NCBI RefSeq assembly: GCF_017349355.1 | Contig: NZ_JAFMPM010000006.1 | Location: 1,674,001 to 1,738,000, forward strand | Origin: Thiothrix fructosivorans | Lineage (GTDB): Bacteria; Pseudomonadota; Gammaproteobacteria; Thiotrichales; Thiotrichaceae | Direction: 5' to 3' | Length of the DNA: 64,000 bases | Shown: positions 28,555-38,279 of the stretch, one piece after another | How positions within the stretch are numbered: position 1 is the first letter of the stretch | How the letters are laid out: each line of letters begins with the position of its first letter | The notes under the pieces: model-generated | What the model saw: the letters and a program-made list of their open reading frames with translations, nothing else | Told to the model about the DNA's origin: nothing | Databases searched by the model: none | Made by a program: the position numbers and the translations under genes

Positions 28555-29163
28555 ATGGCTGACATCCGTCCCGCATTGCAAAGTTTGCGTGAACTTGCCC
28601 CGAATTCTTTCATTTTTGAGAAGAGTGATGCGCTACCGGGCTTTTTGTGTGACAACATGGTGGCTCGTTTCGAGCAAAATCGTGCGGATCAATACGCAGG
28701 ACGCATCGGGCAAGACATGGGTAGCAACCAAAGTGTGAAGAAAACCACGGATATTTTTGTCAGTGGTGATGACAAATCGCATTGGAAGGATGTGGATAAT
28801 AATCTACACCGTTCCCTTGCTCTCGCGTTACGTGAATTCCGTGAAGTTTTTCCGTATTTTAATGGTCCATTCAAAGACATGGGTTATAACCTGCAACGCT
28901 ACCAAGCGGGTGAGTATTACCACTGGCATATTGATGGTGGTAGCCATCAATTTGCCATGCGCCAACTGGTGGCATTGTGGTATTTGAATGATGTGCCGGT
29001 TGAAGCGGGTGGTTCTACCGATTTCTTATTCCAGAATATCAGCGTGCAGCCCGAAAAAGGCAAGTTGGTCTTGTTCCCGCCGTTTTGGACACATGAACAC
29101 CGCGCTGGTTTGATGAAGTCTGGCGTGAAGTACATTGCCACCACTTGGGTCGTGTTTAGCTGA
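28555..29163 (+). CDS. 2-oxoglutarate/Fe(II) oxygenase (prolyl-hydroxylase type)
   Basis: A 202-residue protein with a double-stranded beta-helix of the prolyl 4-hydroxylase/2OG-Fe(II) superfamily. The iron ligands fit HWHIDGG (His and Asp) and THEHRAG (distal His), and the 2-oxoglutarate-binding basic residue would follow in SGVKYI. There is no Shine-Dalgarno before the ATG at 28555, because the sequence there is the end of the IS66 element. The native 5' region was probably lost or displaced. The substrate is unknown; hydroxylation of protein or small-molecule targets are both possible. Confidence 0.82.
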   Translation: MADIRPALQSLRELAPNSFIFEKSDALPGFLCDNMVARFEQNRADQYAGRIGQDMGSNQSVKKTTDIFVSGDDKSHWKDVDNNLHRSLALALREFREVFPYFNGPFKDMGYNLQRYQAGEYYHWHIDGGSHQFAMRQLVALWYLNDVPVEAGGSTDFLFQNISVQPEKGKLVLFPPFWTHEHRAGLMKSGVKYIATTWVVFS

Positions 29164-29473: not shown

Positions 29474-29538
29474 CACTCTTTAACCTATTGCCTATCTCGT
29501 GGGCAGATTACCCGATTCCATCCCTGAAAGGAAATGCC

Positions 29539-30207
29539 ATGCTATTACTGATTAAAAACGTGCTCGATCCTCAACGCATCAAGGAAGTACAGGAATTACT
29601 AGCCACGGGTGAATTCGTCGATGGGCGATTTTCGGCAGGTGGGGAAGCGGCTAAAGTGAAATACAATCAGGAGCTTTCCCCCAATAGCCCGTTGCAACGC
29701 CGTTTGAATGCCATGGTGATGTCACCGCTAGTGCAACACCCTGAATATCAAGCGGCGGTCTTACCGTTGCGGGTGGCTACGGCGTTTTATGCGCGTTATT
29801 TGCCGGGGATGACTTATGGTTTTCACGTGGATGATCCGGTGATGGGGCCTATGTCAGGGCGGTATCGCACCGATGTTTCCACCACGGTCTTTCTCAACGA
29901 TGACTACGAAGGCGGTGAAATTGTCATCCGTACCGTTTATGGGGAAGAAAAAATACGCGGGGAAGCGGGCGACGCGGTTGTGTATGATTCCGGTAGTTGG
30001 CACAAAGTGGCTGAAGTGACCAAAGGTTTCCGGTTGGTAGCGGTAACGTGGGCGCAGAGCTTGGTGAAAGACCCGCAGCAGCGTGAATTACTCTACCAAT
30101 TGGCAAAAGCCCGTGAGGGCGTGATGGAAAAGCTGCCACAGTCCGTAGAGGCTGCCAGCATTAGTACTGTGCACATTAATTTGTTGCGGATGTGGAGCGA
30201 AGTGTAA
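29539..30207 (+). CDS. PKHD-type Fe(II)-dependent hydroxylase (PiuC/YbiX-like)
   Basis: A 222-residue 2-oxoglutarate/Fe(II) hydroxylase of the PiuC/YbiX family, often linked to siderophore or iron use. Iron ligands are in FHVDDPVMG (HxD) and SGSWHKVAEV (distal His), with FRLVAV following for 2-oxoglutarate. MLLLIKNVLDP is the family N-terminus. The ATG at 29539 has AAAGGAAATGCC upstream; the open frame from 29488 is not supported. It is the second such enzyme within 1.7 kb. No siderophore receptor gene is adjacent. Confidence 0.88.
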   Translation: MLLLIKNVLDPQRIKEVQELLATGEFVDGRFSAGGEAAKVKYNQELSPNSPLQRRLNAMVMSPLVQHPEYQAAVLPLRVATAFYARYLPGMTYGFHVDDPVMGPMSGRYRTDVSTTVFLNDDYEGGEIVIRTVYGEEKIRGEAGDAVVYDSGSWHKVAEVTKGFRLVAVTWAQSLVKDPQQRELLYQLAKAREGVMEKLPQSVEAASISTVHINLLRMWSEV

Positions 30208-31319: not shown

Positions 31320-31511
31320 TTATTTCCAGAAATTCGCTTCTTTAGAAGCCATTTCGCGGACTTCGTTAGCCAGTTCCTGATAACGTTCACGGTAAGATTT
31401 CCACTCACCAACGTAGTACTCCTCAGCACTGAATGCGCCTGATTGCTCATAAGCAGTGAATTTTGCCTGCATTTCAATCATTTCGCTGATCAGCTCTTGC
31501 TTAGTGCTCAT
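31320..31511 (-). CDS. Small acidic helical protein of unknown function
   Basis: A 63-residue soluble protein, rich in Glu and aromatic residues and probably all alpha-helical (KQELISEMIEMQAKFTAYE; ELANEVREMASKEANFW). The ATG at 31511 sits about eight bases after a GAGG-like site; the frame open upstream is not supported. It lies between two terminators, so it is probably transcribed alone. It stands next to the cysteine-free DsrC paralogue in a sulfur-oxidation neighbourhood, but I know no function. Confidence 0.65.
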   Translation of the reverse strand: MSTKQELISEMIEMQAKFTAYEQSGAFSAEEYYVGEWKSYRERYQELANEVREMASKEANFWK

Positions 31512-31566: not shown

Positions 31567-31589
31567 GTAAAAGGGGGAATACCCCCTTT
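31567..31589 (-). terminator. Intrinsic terminator after the DsrC paralogue
   Basis: On the minus strand AAAGGGGG, a four-base loop and CCCCCTTT are followed by another T. This GC-rich hairpin lies 11 bases after the stop of the DsrC-like gene and should end the minus-strand cluster. Confidence 0.75.
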
Positions 31590-31599
31590 CGGGTAGAAA

Positions 31600-31944
31600 T
31601 CAATAGCCGCCTTTACGGTTAGTGGCTGGCAGGCCAGCGACTTTCAGACCTTGCTTGCTGGGTGCACGTGGGAACAGGGTGTACATGTCTTTACTTGTCA
31701 GCTTTTTGTCGCCCCACTGATCAGCCATTGCTTTCTGGATGATGCGTTCCATTGGCTGCGTGCCGCCGTTGTTGATGTATTGATCGCGCAAATAGTTGAT
31801 CACATCCCAATGACGCTCGCTCAATTCGCCAATGCCTTCTTCAACAGCAATAACTTTAGCAACTTCTTCGTTCCAATCGTTGAGGTCTACCAGATAACCT
31901 GCTTCGGTGGTTTCGATGGTTGTGCCGTTTACTTCGTAAGCCAT
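31600..31944 (-). CDS. DsrC/TusE-family protein lacking the functional cysteines
   Basis: A 114-residue paralogue of DsrC. The fold is clear: GYLVDLNDWNEEVAKVIA, RHWDVINYLRDQY and the C-terminal arm starting KQGLKVAGLP align with DsrC at 37824-38159. Both cysteines that carry sulfur in DsrC are absent (the arm ends in ATNRKGGY), and there is no cysteine anywhere in the protein. It therefore cannot form the DsrC trisulfide. Cysteine-lacking DsrC relatives are thought to be regulatory or binding proteins (some are called RspA). A TATAAT box lies 58 bases upstream. Confidence 0.85.
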   Translation of the reverse strand: MAYEVNGTTIETTEAGYLVDLNDWNEEVAKVIAVEEGIGELSERHWDVINYLRDQYINNGGTQPMERIIQKAMADQWGDKKLTSKDMYTLFPRAPSKQGLKVAGLPATNRKGGY

Positions 31945-32007: not shown

Positions 32008-32062
32008 CGAAAAAGCAGTACGCCTCCCATTCCTCAAAAGGGATAGGGGGAAAGGTGCGTGA

Positions 32063-32698
32063 CTATTCCGTTGGTTTCAGGGTTTTAATGCCTTTGTGCG
32101 GCATAAACAGCCCGCAACCCAGCTTACGCCCATCGCCTAAGCCGTATTGCTGCAAGCGAATAGACGGGTCACTGTCCAAATCCGCCAACATCAAGTGACG
32201 GGTGTGTAACACACCTTGCGGGGTACGCAGTGCGTGACTTTTGCCGCATAGCATCTTTTTCACCTTGAAATCCGCTACCCGTTTTACTTCTGCTGCCATG
32301 CGTTGCAGGAAGCTGTTTTCGTCTTCCGCCTCATCTGATAATACGTAACGCGCAAAAATCACCGAGGTGTGTACGAAAGGCTTTTCCTTCATGTCCCGCA
32401 AGCCGACCGCGTAGCCGTTCACATCCAGCGTTGTGCCAGACAGTGCTTGTGTTTCAGGGATTCGTGATTTGGGAATGCGTAAAAACATCCGCGTGCGCCG
32501 TGACGGCAACAGGAATTGGTTGCTCGCATCATCGGGGCGTTCCCAGCCATTACCGCTTTCGGCAACGTGGATGGGGTGGACTCCAGTAACGATTTCATCG
32601 GCAAACCAAGGCAGGGCTTGCTGGATGGCTTGTGCCAGATCCCACGCATGATCCAGCGGCAATTGCTTGCACGAAATGGCGAAACTCACGTCCAGCAC
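32063..32698 (-). CDS. Stand-alone Cas6/Cmx6-like protein (type I-MYXAN style)
   Basis: A 211-residue protein (from GTG 32698) resembling the Cas6/Cmx6 family of CRISPR RNA endoribonucleases. The remembered family pattern LPLDHAWDLAQAIQQALPWF, then GVHPIHVAES, SRRTRMFLRIP and LMLADLDSDPSIRLQQ is present, and the glycine-rich RAMP loop GLGDGRKLGCGLFMPHKG closes the chain. No CRISPR repeats or other cas genes are in the window. The true start may be ATA at 32752. That codon adds IFWQEDEDK, fits the family N-terminus as I remember it, and has GAGG at normal spacing; GTG 32698 has no ribosome-binding site. It follows a TauD-like gene and a 65-residue gene. Confidence 0.78.
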   Translation of the reverse strand: MLDVSFAISCKQLPLDHAWDLAQAIQQALPWFADEIVTGVHPIHVAESGNGWERPDDASNQFLLPSRRTRMFLRIPKSRIPETQALSGTTLDVNGYAVGLRDMKEKPFVHTSVIFARYVLSDEAEDENSFLQRMAAEVKRVADFKVKKMLCGKSHALRTPQGVLHTRHLMLADLDSDPSIRLQQYGLGDGRKLGCGLFMPHKGIKTLKPTE

Positions 32699-32757
32699 GT
32701 CATCGGGTGCTTGATAGGGGAGGGTTTTATCCTCGTCTTCCTGCCAAAATATCGTGC

Positions 32758-32955
32758 TTACCTCGCCGACGAAAAAGTGATTTCCAACTGGTCGTACCAG
32801 TCTTCCGGGCGGTCTTTGTAGCCGGGGGGCTCAATATCAATCTGGAAAAAGATCGAGCCAGTTTCCAACGCGCGTTGTTGCACGATTTGCTTTAGCTCCT
32901 CGAAATTGCTGATCTTGTCGCCGTCTACCATCAAAATTTGGCTTAAACTGAGCAT
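32758..32955 (-). CDS. Small protein of unknown function between TauD-like and Cas6-like genes
   Basis: A 65-residue protein (MLSLSQILMVDGDKI...) with no signal peptide, helix or cysteine. An AAGGAG ribosome-binding site stands before the ATG, which overlaps the stop of the TauD-like gene by 13 bases. Its own stop lies five bases before the possible ATA start of the Cas6-like gene. The tight packing argues for a real gene translated as part of this operon. I do not recognise the family. Confidence 0.72.
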   Translation of the reverse strand: MLSLSQILMVDGDKISNFEELKQIVQQRALETGSIFFQIDIEPPGYKDRPEDWYDQLEITFSSAR

Positions 32956-33848
32956 ATTGTCTCCTTAGGTTCTTTAACCCGATCAAAATAACGTCCACGG
33001 TATAGTAGGCGGGTTTGTGTCGGGTCGTCGCTGTCTTTAAATGCGGTGCGGTTGTGCAGCACGTTGTTGCACAACAAGCCTTCGCCTGCCTGTAATGTGT
33101 ACCTTATTTTGTAAGGTGAGTCCTGTTGCCATAAATTCAATAGGAAATCGGCGGCTTCGCGTGTCATGGGGTCATCACGCCAGATCACATTGCGCTGGCG
33201 GGCAGAATAGCGCATGTGCAAATGACCCGCAGTGGTGACGCTAAACACGGGGCCGGATTGTTCGGGGCGAATGATTTCCCCGTTCAATATGTTGGCAGGA
33301 ATCGTGAAGGCATTCGGGTGCATCAAAGCGTGGATATAATCGGGGTTAGCATCACGCAATAAAATGTAGGCAATTTCATGATCCATCAACCAGCTTTCAC
33401 CGCCTTCGAGTGCGGGTTGGGCGCAATGCAACAACATGCCGTGAATTTGCTCTTCGGGCAGGTTGTAATAGCCGTCGGTATGCCAGCTTAGCGGTTTATT
33501 GGTGTAGGGAATGTAATCGTGCTGCCCCGCGTGCGAAGTAACGTGCAAAGAAGTGAGGCTATCTTCATCCGCGCACAAATTGCTATCCAACCGAAACAAG
33601 CCCACTTTGTGTCCTAAACGGTGTACGTGACGCTTGCTGCGCACGTCGCCTTGCGCAAAATGGTACAGCGCGAGATTGTGTTCGCGGCAAATCTGTTGAA
33701 GTTGCGCTATTTCGGTGTCGCTGGGGTTTTCTGGGTCTTCAATCGTGACGAACAAGAATTCTGGCAGTAAAGGGTAAGCCGATAATTTTTTGTTGCGCCA
33801 TGCTTGATAGGTATTTAACTCATTGAGATTAAAAGGAGAGTTGTACAT
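32943..33848 (-). CDS. TauD/TfdA-family 2-oxoglutarate oxygenase
   Basis: A 301-residue 2-oxoglutarate/Fe(II) oxygenase of the TauD/TfdA superfamily. The HxD iron ligands lie in LSWHTDGYYNLP, the distal histidine in NNVLHNRTAF and the 2-oxoglutarate arginine in TRLLYRGRYFDRV. TauD itself releases sulfite from taurine, which would suit a sulfur oxidiser, but this protein lacks adjacent taurine transporter genes and may act on something else. The first gene of a minus-strand cluster that diverges from the dsr operon across a 321-base gap. Confidence 0.85.
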   Translation of the reverse strand: MYNSPFNLNELNTYQAWRNKKLSAYPLLPEFLFVTIEDPENPSDTEIAQLQQICREHNLALYHFAQGDVRSKRHVHRLGHKVGLFRLDSNLCADEDSLTSLHVTSHAGQHDYIPYTNKPLSWHTDGYYNLPEEQIHGMLLHCAQPALEGGESWLMDHEIAYILLRDANPDYIHALMHPNAFTIPANILNGEIIRPEQSGPVFSVTTAGHLHMRYSARQRNVIWRDDPMTREAADFLLNLWQQDSPYKIRYTLQAGEGLLCNNVLHNRTAFKDSDDPTQTRLLYRGRYFDRVKEPKETICSV

Positions 33849-34169
33849 CTTATAGACCTCGACAAAGACCGATAATCACTATAGCTATTTGCAATATTAA
33901 AAAATCCGAATATGCTATTGTACTGCTGCAAGTGGACTATTTTTGATTATGTTGAGGGTCTATCCCCTTCGAGATATGCCCCGGTTTCAAGCAACACCCC
34001 ATGGGTGAGATTCTTTGTTAGGGATATGACGCATACACTTAGCCCACTCGCAAATAGAGCGAAACTACGTTACGCGACCCGTTTTTGATTTGACATTCCC
34101 CTTGGCTTTTAGGTTGTAGAGCTGGTCAAGAGGAAACGCCATTGCAATCGTTTTACTGAGGAGGCAGGT
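33849..34169. other. Divergent intergenic region between the TauD-like cluster and dsrA
   Basis: A 321-base gap without a gene. The left half is AT-rich, and a CCCATGGG palindrome lies at 33998-34005. TTGACA at 34090-34095 with TTGTAG or TGTAGA about 18-19 bases later is a weak promoter candidate for dsrA. GAGGAGG precedes the dsrA start. Both operons must take their promoters from here. Confidence 0.6.
34090..34120 (+). promoter_or_regulatory. Candidate dsr promoter
   Basis: A TTGACA -35 box at 34090-34095 is followed after 18-19 bases by TTGTAG/TGTAGA, a poor -10. The 5' leader would be about 45 bases. Tentative. Confidence 0.3.
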
Positions 34170-35471
34170 ATGGCAACGAACAATTATCCAACGCCGATGC
34201 TGGATGTACTGGAAGAAGGCCCATGGCCTAGCTTCATCAGCGGTTTCAAGAAACTGCGTGATGAGCATCCAGATGAGCGCATCCGCAACGTTATCAACGG
34301 CCTGATGGGTCAGTTGGAGCATTCTTACGAAACCAAAATGGGCTACTGGAAAGGTGGTACTATTTCTGTCTTCGGTTACGGCGGCGGCATCATCCCGCGC
34401 TTCTCTGAAGTCGGTCACATGTTCCCGGAATCCAAAGAATTCCACACCCTGCGTGTACAGCCACCGGCTGGTAACTACTACACCACCGACATGCTGCGCC
34501 AATTGGCGGATAGCTGGGAAAAATGGGGTTCCGGCCTGCAAACGTTCCACGGTCAAACCGGCAACATCATGTTTATCGGTGCGAACAGCGTCAACTTCCA
34601 ACACTTCTTTGATGAAATCAACGAATACGGTTGGGACTTGGGTGGTGCAGGCCCTTGCGTGCGTACCGGTATGTCTTGCGTTGGTGCAGCACGTTGCGAA
34701 ATGTCCAACTGTAACGAACACGCGATCCATCGCCGTCTGATGAATAACTTCACGGATGACGTGCATCGCCCGGCTCTGCCTTACAAGTTCAAATTCAAAA
34801 TTTCTGGCTGCCCGAACGACTGCCAGAACGCGATTGAACGTGCGGACTTCGCCGTTATCGGTACTTGGCGTGATGACATGAAAGTCAACCAAGAAGCCGT
34901 TAAAGAAATGATCATGAAGAAAGCCAAAGAAATTGGCAAAGAAGGTGATCGTTCTGCGGGTCGTCAATACATGTTCGACAACGTAATCAGCCGCTGCCCA
35001 ACGCAAGCGATCAAGCTGAACGATGATGACACCATTACGGTTGATAACAGCAACTGTGTACGTTGTATGCACTGCCTGAACGTTATGCCCAAAGCGCTGC
35101 AAGTCGGTGATGACAAAGGCGTAACTGTTTTGATCGGTGGTAAGCGTACTCTGAAAATCGGCGACTTGATGGGTATCGTCACGATCCCATTCATGAAGCT
35201 GGATACTGAAGAAGATTACGAGCGCATCGTTGAATTGGCTGCTTCCATCATCGACTTCTGGGCTGAAAATGGTCTGGAACACGAACGTTGCGGCGAAATG
35301 ATTGAGCGTATCGGTCTGGTGAACTTCCTCGAAGGTATCGGTATCGACCCAGATCCAAACATGATCAAGCAACCACGTAACGTTTCTTACGTGCGTACTG
35401 ACGGTTGGGACGAAGCTGCTGAAGCTTGGTTTAACCGTAAGCGCGAAGAGAAAATGGCTGCTGCTGCCTAA
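34170..35471 (+). CDS. dsrA: Dissimilatory sulfite reductase, alpha subunit (reverse type)
   Basis: A 433-residue cytoplasmic subunit of siroheme sulfite reductase, here expected to oxidise sulfur carried by DsrC to sulfite. The siroheme-[4Fe-4S] ligands are in CVGAARCEMSNC and SGCPNDCQNA, and a ferredoxin insert follows (SRCPTQAIKL, CVRCMHCLNVMP). It starts with GAGGAGGCAGGT before the ATG. Leucine codons are mostly CTG and GGT/CGT dominate, unlike the TTG-rich genes around it, which points to strong expression. The assignment to the oxidative (reverse) branch rests on the dsrEFH and dsrL genes that follow. Confidence 0.97.
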   Translation: MATNNYPTPMLDVLEEGPWPSFISGFKKLRDEHPDERIRNVINGLMGQLEHSYETKMGYWKGGTISVFGYGGGIIPRFSEVGHMFPESKEFHTLRVQPPAGNYYTTDMLRQLADSWEKWGSGLQTFHGQTGNIMFIGANSVNFQHFFDEINEYGWDLGGAGPCVRTGMSCVGAARCEMSNCNEHAIHRRLMNNFTDDVHRPALPYKFKFKISGCPNDCQNAIERADFAVIGTWRDDMKVNQEAVKEMIMKKAKEIGKEGDRSAGRQYMFDNVISRCPTQAIKLNDDDTITVDNSNCVRCMHCLNVMPKALQVGDDKGVTVLIGGKRTLKIGDLMGIVTIPFMKLDTEEDYERIVELAASIIDFWAENGLEHERCGEMIERIGLVNFLEGIGIDPDPNMIKQPRNVSYVRTDGWDEAAEAWFNRKREEKMAAAA

Positions 35472-35554
35472 GACGGCACTTCGCAACAGGGCAGTGTTTA
35501 ACCCTGCCTTGTTGCCCAGATTATTGATAAATTTGAGTTTGACGGAGGCTTCAC

Positions 35555-38159: not shown

Positions 38160-38197
38160 TTATTACGTCACTAGTTAGGTCGTAAGACGCGAAGATT

Positions 38198-38222
38198 GCT
38201 CCGGTTCGCCGGAGCCTCTTCT
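38198..38222 (+). terminator. Stem-loop between dsrC and dsrM
   Basis: A perfect seven-base stem GCTCCGG/CCGGAGC closes a TTCG tetraloop, a very stable RNA fold, followed by CTCTTCTT rather than a full T-tract. It may end or attenuate transcription, or protect the 3' end of the dsrABEFHC message. Confidence 0.65.
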
Positions 38223-38279
38223 TAAGCCCTGTTGTTGACAGGTTTTCAGAAGAGAGACTAATGACTTCAGGAGTACGCA

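Follow-up and report, generated by a model that had tools for sequence, protein, structure and literature searches.

We found that a Cas6-like gene near the middle of the 64-kb window (the whole stretch of DNA analyzed here) sits beside dsrA and faces away from it. We take it to be a member of a distinct Cas6 subfamily, independent of CRISPR, whose genes are accessory to the reverse-Dsr sulfur-oxidation locus in Gammaproteobacteria and whose proteins probably act on RNA; we give this reading as a whole a probability of about 0.6. Its parts differ in strength. The protein almost certainly serves the dsr system; judging from its sequence, it would probably act on RNA; and the RNA in question may be a transcript of the dsr regulon, although we put that at somewhat under even odds. 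We observed that the protein is homologous to Cas6 and forms a separate clade and that its gene co-occurs almost completely with dsrA, is linked to it in a fixed divergent orientation, is independent of cas1, is under purifying selection and has a dyad in common with dsrA. Counted against the reading are the lack of a universal cis hairpin, an Rfam scan that returned tRNA only, an Asn at a key position of the solved relative 8fcj_B, and the genomes in which dsrA lies on another contig (27) or far away (2).

The Cas6-like gene, stop included, occupies positions 32063..32752 on the minus strand (229 codons from an ATA at 32752), with a DH motif at residues 34-35 and a Gly-rich loop near the C terminus. 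The start codon is ATA here (32750-32752) but ATG in the close relatives L002-L015, and the next in-frame start, a GTG, would remove 18 residues, including the conserved N-terminal motif. The ATA is either a weak start or a sequence error. Upstream on the same strand lie s65 (32758..32955), a conserved 65-aa protein of no known family according to its ORF, Pfam/NCBIfam searches and alignment, and a 301-aa TauD-like 2-oxoglutarate dioxygenase (32943..33848; PF02668, E=1.4e-19). Downstream, again on the minus strand, are the DsrC paralogue DsrC2 (31600..31944; PF04358, E=8.6e-35) and s63 (31320..31511), a conserved 63-aa protein of no known family, defined by its ORF and alignment. dsrA (34170..35471, plus strand; ORF and dsrA model) is divergent from this cluster. 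The neighbors given in the initial annotation, a TauD-like oxygenase, a small protein and a DsrC paralogue all facing away from dsrA, were thus correctly recognized. In an alignment of 121 different s65 sequences, S5, P43, P50, W53 and F61 were present in all 121. DsrC2 is a DsrC/TusE family member by both Pfam and NCBIfam and lacks the C-terminal Cys, ending in RKGGY instead of a Cys-bearing arm; DsrC-type proteins of this kind go by the name RspA.

The Cas6-like protein matched PF09559 over residues 21-220 (E=6e-54; 183.4 bits against a cutoff of 26.7) and TIGR02807, cas6_cmx6 (103.3 bits against a cutoff of 98.85), and six Cas6-type PADLOC models matched it as well. A profile comparison with eight plasmid Cas6/Cmx6 proteins gave a probability of 99.9 and an E value of 8.5e-35, and the only solved relative found by sequence was 8fcj_B (E=9.4e-25, profile positions 16-219). 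These searches agree with the Cas6/Cmx6 assignment first made by eye, for which the absence of a Cas6 match by profile had been named as the contrary outcome and did not occur. The Gly-rich loop reported near the C terminus is also there (GLGDGRKLGCGLF).

To judge which residues are kept, we aligned 90 members with less than 85% mutual identity, all 90 of which matched TIGR02807 at an E value of 0.001 or below. W3, G69, W70, R86, R92, E145, G170 and G214 were invariant, H35 was kept in 89 of the 90, and the Gly-rich loop was near-invariant. In a second alignment of 13 rows, 8 of them dsr-linked members and five of them cyanobacterial plasmid Cas6/Cmx6 proteins, D34, H35, L39, R92, S197, Q201, G204, G206, G214 and F216 were common to every row, so that the three glycines of the C-terminal Gly-rich loop (G204, G206 and G214) are shared by all 13. 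Extra features of the dsr-linked members are a W-x-E motif at the N terminus, the insert SGNGW and a tail with PHK; two deep members (those of G602 and G629) retain the DH motif and the PHK tail, with the NGW missing from their insert. In a tree of 43 rows, 35 dsr-family rows split from 8 plasmid rows at support 100/99, with G602 and G629 deepest among the former.

The gene is under purifying selection: dN/dS was 0.05 to 0.18 in the 14 computable pairs among 21 from the window's genus, with many dS values above 1. Pairwise distances of the Cas6-like protein correlated with those of DsrA (0.67, 80 loci) and of the TauD-like protein (0.76, 70 loci), compared with 0.79 for DsrA and DsrB. A scan of genome contigs returned at least 578 relatives among at least 587 pattern matches, and among the best 80 of these relatives, 77 were assigned to Gammaproteobacteria and 3 had no class. 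The viral contigs gave 37 pattern matches and no relative. One genome, G020, has two copies (L020 and L067), the sole such case among 57 relatives. The second copy is 44% identical and may reflect contamination or transfer, since the tree groups it with the G260 and G358 copies.

We then looked across 369 genomes, many of them drafts, drawn evenly from the class Gammaproteobacteria. The Cas6-like gene and dsrA occurred together in 111, the gene alone in 7, dsrA alone in 8 and neither in 243 (Fisher p ~1e-74, a value made too low by the relatedness of the genomes). The limit for dsrA (E<1e-30) was chosen post hoc, where the list passes from dsrA fragments to dsrB cross-matches, and gave 119 genomes; a curated cutoff gave 112. 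Cas6-like matches likewise came from 119 genomes, and leaving out G311 as a chance match (E=3.5e-4, 26% identity, a piece of an 804-codon frame with no cluster genes in the surrounding 10 kb) left 118; with G311 counted, the table reads 111/8/8/242. Where the assembly had no more than 10 contigs, the gene and dsrA were each present in 20 genomes, and these were the same 20. A search of other dsr-carrying genomes for the gene and its neighbors, which the initial annotation had proposed, therefore found them conserved with dsr rather than with CRISPR (111/7/8/243, against p=0.08 for cas1).

Most exceptions to this co-occurrence were contigs breaking beside dsrA. Of the seven gene-only genomes, one has a dsrB fragment (G102), one has a piece of dsrA adjoining the gene at a contig start (G351), and in four the contig terminates on the dsrA side (G127, G161, G220 and G350). 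The seventh, G333, is unexplained: its 7.4-kb contig has no dsrA on that side, and this 91%-complete draft has no dsrB match. On the dsrA-only side, the contig ends inside dsrA or at most about 650 nt from its start in L212, L215, L217, L218 and L219, and just beyond tauD in L213. L214 and L216 have no cluster in the upstream sequence seen (1.75 kb and about 7.7 kb), and their drafts are 88% and 86% complete.

Linkage was close and its orientation fixed. dsrA lay within 6 kb on the same contig in 82 of the 118 gene-carrying genomes, and all 82 pairs were divergent. In the remainder, dsrA was on the same contig at 41 and 517 kb (two genomes), on other contigs (27) or not found (7). The usual order has dsrA pointing one way and tauD, s65, sometimes a further gene, the Cas6-like gene, DsrC2 and s63 pointing the other. 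Among 210 loci, some of which overlap or are truncated where a contig stops, DsrC2 follows the Cas6-like gene in 151 and s65 directly precedes it in 131. The further gene, of about 235 aa, had no Pfam or NCBIfam match and was present at 35 of 205 loci (e.g., L037:785-1489), where it separates s65 from the Cas6-like gene. An additional sample of 259 genomes, of which the 23 shown all belong to the same class, gave three matches: the window's own genome, G602 and G629. In the latter two, dsrA is divergent beside the Cas6-like gene, followed by DsrC2 and, further on, tauD, so the pattern of linkage to dsr is repeated on a deep branch.

The spacer between tauD and dsrA contains a dyad of the type TATCCC-N4-GGGATA (33961..33976, no strand assigned). 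It scored at least 9.5 of 12 in 68 of 70 non-redundant dsrA-tauD spacers, the same spacers from which it was defined, and the motif finder scored 1118 on them against 608 on shuffled spacers. The exceptions were L078 and L102, whose spacers are 129 and 144 nt long. We also considered the dyad as an RNA hairpin and rejected this idea: over the 68 spacers, pairing was about what independent columns predict (44 observed versus 40.6 expected, 48 versus 44.0, and 54 versus 55.4). Since its pairs do not covary beyond independence, the dyad reads as a DNA site.

Copies of the dyad occurred upstream of s63 in 24 of 56 cases (1.8% in shuffles) and, less frequently, upstream of DsrC2 (16 of 99; 1.0% in shuffles); the imperfect copies in the window are at 31580..31595 and 32030..32045, respectively, neither with an assigned strand. 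At two mismatches, the dyad matched within the window no more than by chance (3 versus 2.85). The exact pattern TAYCYCNNNNGRGRTA was found at three places in the 4.36-Mb genome, and a reversed control at none. One site is the dsrA-tauD spacer, another lies 37 nt before a 378-aa ORF (L223:1501-1516), and the third is inside an ORF (L224). The 378-aa ORF, which by eye we take to resemble TrpD2/YbiB, is a possible regulon member. A second conserved element, CACCCCATnGGTrGGGTT, lies at about 33995-34014, 18 to 37 nt further toward dsrA. Its 24/29 and 19/34 pairs exceeded expectation (54 versus 33.9 and 46 versus 34.4) but its 23/30 pair did not (28 versus 29.4), so no continuous stem is evident, though some structure may be present. 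The dyad and the second element are likely to be binding sites of a putative dsr regulator.

The initial annotation had suggested the dsrC-dsrM hairpin as an RNA substrate. The spacer (38160..38279, plus strand) does fold into a stable hairpin, and the hairpin was strong in most of 77 such spacers. It was missing in L078, L102, L103 and L070, all four of which keep the Cas6-like gene, and as a general substrate it fails. The dsrA-dsrB spacer (35472-35554) also folds into a strong hairpin. Against simple shuffles, 70% of dsrC-dsrM and 53% of dsrA-dsrB spacers of at least 30 nt folded with z below -2 (the full sets comprise 79 and 81 spacers), and the others were short or unstructured. We rejected both hairpins as a general target, being frequent and not universal; perhaps they are mRNA stabilizers or attenuators. 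By the same shuffles, neither the cas6-dsrC2 spacers (median z -0.41, 18% below -2) nor the dsrC2-s63 spacers (median z -1.6, 46% below -2) had a general structure. An Rfam scan detected only tRNA genes, one in the window and four in L104 among 8 loci. Spacer folding found no cis hairpin common to all loci; the target, if it is RNA, would act in trans or be recognized by features beyond these scans.

The failure to find a cis substrate is consistent with the alternative that survives best, a Cas6-fold protein that no longer cuts RNA and either partners with DsrC2 or the Dsr proteins or only binds RNA. We consider this unlikely but a serious contender. Several observations favor it: DsrC2 adjoins the gene at most of the loci, and the subfamily's own motifs, the N-terminal W, the SGNGW of the insert and the PHK of the tail, hint at a partner. 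In addition, 8fcj_B has an Asn at the position of H35, so Cas6 relatives can dispense with a His of this type. The near-complete retention of H35 and the Gly-rich loop across the 90 members argues against it. According to passages of two papers, most active Cas6 proteins, with exceptions, use the His that follows the first strand for catalysis, and the Gly-rich loop is a common mark of Cas6 (PMC3150331, PMC3945376). By analogy of position, H35 may be catalytic in the dsr-linked protein, and we infer, in agreement with the role first proposed for it, that the protein may bind RNA, cut it and act in regulation.

Next in order is the idea that the target is tRNA and that the Cas6-like protein, with DsrC2, links the handling of tRNA to the supply of sulfur. 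DsrEFH and DsrC are related to the TusBCD and TusE tRNA-thiolation relay, DsrC2 matches the TusE/DsrC model, and a target in trans would fit the lack of a universal cis hairpin. The absence of a C-terminal Cys from DsrC2 speaks against the idea, which we regard as rather improbable.

A role in trans, processing the CRISPR RNA of arrays located elsewhere in the genome, ranks third and is very improbable. Within the window, the initial annotation was right that there is neither an array nor another cas gene: a scan for direct repeats with copies up to 300 nt apart found only 7 two-copy families, and when 70 ORFs were compared with PADLOC at 1e-5, only the Cas6-like ORF matched Cas6 models. A generic PADLOC 2OG model labeled CAS-associated matched two window ORFs, probably those at 28555-29160(+) and 29488-30204(+), which resemble 2OG-type oxygenases. 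The broader phrase "no CRISPR" holds for the window and not for the genome, which has five cas1 matches elsewhere, the nearest among those listed being on the same contig about 313 kb from the window edge. "Stand-alone" is therefore valid for the locus only. These cas1 genes and the family name Cas6/Cmx6 favor processing in trans. Against it, cas1 showed no clear association with the gene (51 of 118 genomes with it versus 85 of 251 without, p=0.08). The gene is not always found with CRISPR, the outcome that had been named as contrary, since 67 of the 118 carriers have no cas1 match. Five small genomes (G074, G143, G176, G289 and G384; 1.0 to 1.1 Mb in four cases and 1.4 Mb in the fifth) carry the gene and lack cas1, and the dsr-linked clade is separate from the plasmid CRISPR Cas6 proteins. 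Among 215 sequences totaling 2.35 Mb, a set that counts the window and overlapping copies, we found no array; two repeat flags were rejected on inspection, one lying inside a long ORF (L099) and one being a tandem repeat without differing spacers (L186). A near-constant dsr neighbor, present with or without CRISPR, points to an RNA-related job in sulfur metabolism.

The last alternative, a dsr neighbor with no functional link, draws on the fact that position alone does not prove function and merits hardly any weight, given that the gene is kept in small genomes and when unlinked to dsrA, has low dN/dS and shares an operator with dsrA, and that, in a single genus belonging to the window's family, the gene and dsr are both present in G032 and both absent from G021 and G026.

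We therefore return to the CRISPR-independent accessory gene of the dsr locus as our preferred explanation. The conserved DH motif and Gly-rich loop suggest that the protein keeps Cas6-type binding of hairpin RNA and probably cleavage, and together with DsrC2 it might tune the dsr regulon after transcription. More tentatively, a Cas6-type RNA endonuclease may have become fixed, outside immunity, in a central energy-metabolism regulon of sulfur-oxidizing Gammaproteobacteria, where it would cut or guard a specific hairpin RNA with a DsrC-like sensor and so couple RNA processing to the state of the sulfur relay; we lean slightly against this fuller version.

Cas6 is catalogued with CRISPR, a label that database names carry over to a large family seemingly unrelated to CRISPR. 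If our reading is right, a Cas6 lineage works in ordinary cell regulation, which bears on the reuse or origin of Cas6; a sulfur pathway that has been studied well gains an overlooked gene cluster and operator; and in a sulfur oxidizer an isolated Cas6 annotation is no sign of CRISPR. Among the papers listed in searches of open-licence literature, none linked Cas6 with dsr. A term search of the main text of a history of Dsr sulfur oxidation gave no mention of CRISPR or Cas6 (PMC11406059). Passages on cas6 in PMC10952691, PMC7540712, PMC5944118 and PMC5728499 concern CRISPR systems, and those on CRISPR-Cas exaptation in PMC6452270 discuss it without a dsr-linked Cas6 case.

Among known systems, dsrR and dsrS are likewise non-core genes of the oxidative dsr locus but are not Cas6-like; a passage of PMC11406059 describes DsrR as regulatory. 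The DsrC/TusE family includes the partner gene DsrC2, not the Cas6-like protein itself, and a DsrC paralogue of Allochromatium vinosum, Alvin_1508, is described in part of PMC11267869 as falling together with dsr genes on pyrite. The type I-B CRISPR-associated Cas6 of PDB 8fcj is a sequence relative, but it works with Cas proteins and has Asn at H35. The 8fcj Cas6 belongs to a CRISPR-associated transposon.

The closest comparison is with type I-MYXAN Cas6/Cmx6, for example, that of the Synechocystis sp. PCC 6714 plasmid pSYLB. The usual type I-MYXAN setting, an array with cas3, cas5, cas7 and cas8 neighbors, was absent from the 64-kb window, to which our cas scan was confined. Plasmid Cas6/Cmx6 genes adjoin cas3 and cas8-type genes in seven of eight plasmids. 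The exception, a Gloeobacter plasmid gene (L204:3974-4762), is another Cas6 outside a CRISPR context: its neighbors are a PAPS-reductase-family gene and a cupin gene, and the 8.6 kb of sequence contains no further cas gene. The type I-MYXAN and dsr-linked proteins match the same TIGR02807/PF09559 model and have in common the DH motif, R92 and the Gly-rich loop over about 190 aligned columns, at 20 to 23% identity. The plasmid proteins have no W motif at the N terminus, no SGNGW insert and no PHK tail, and they form a clade separate from the dsr-linked members.
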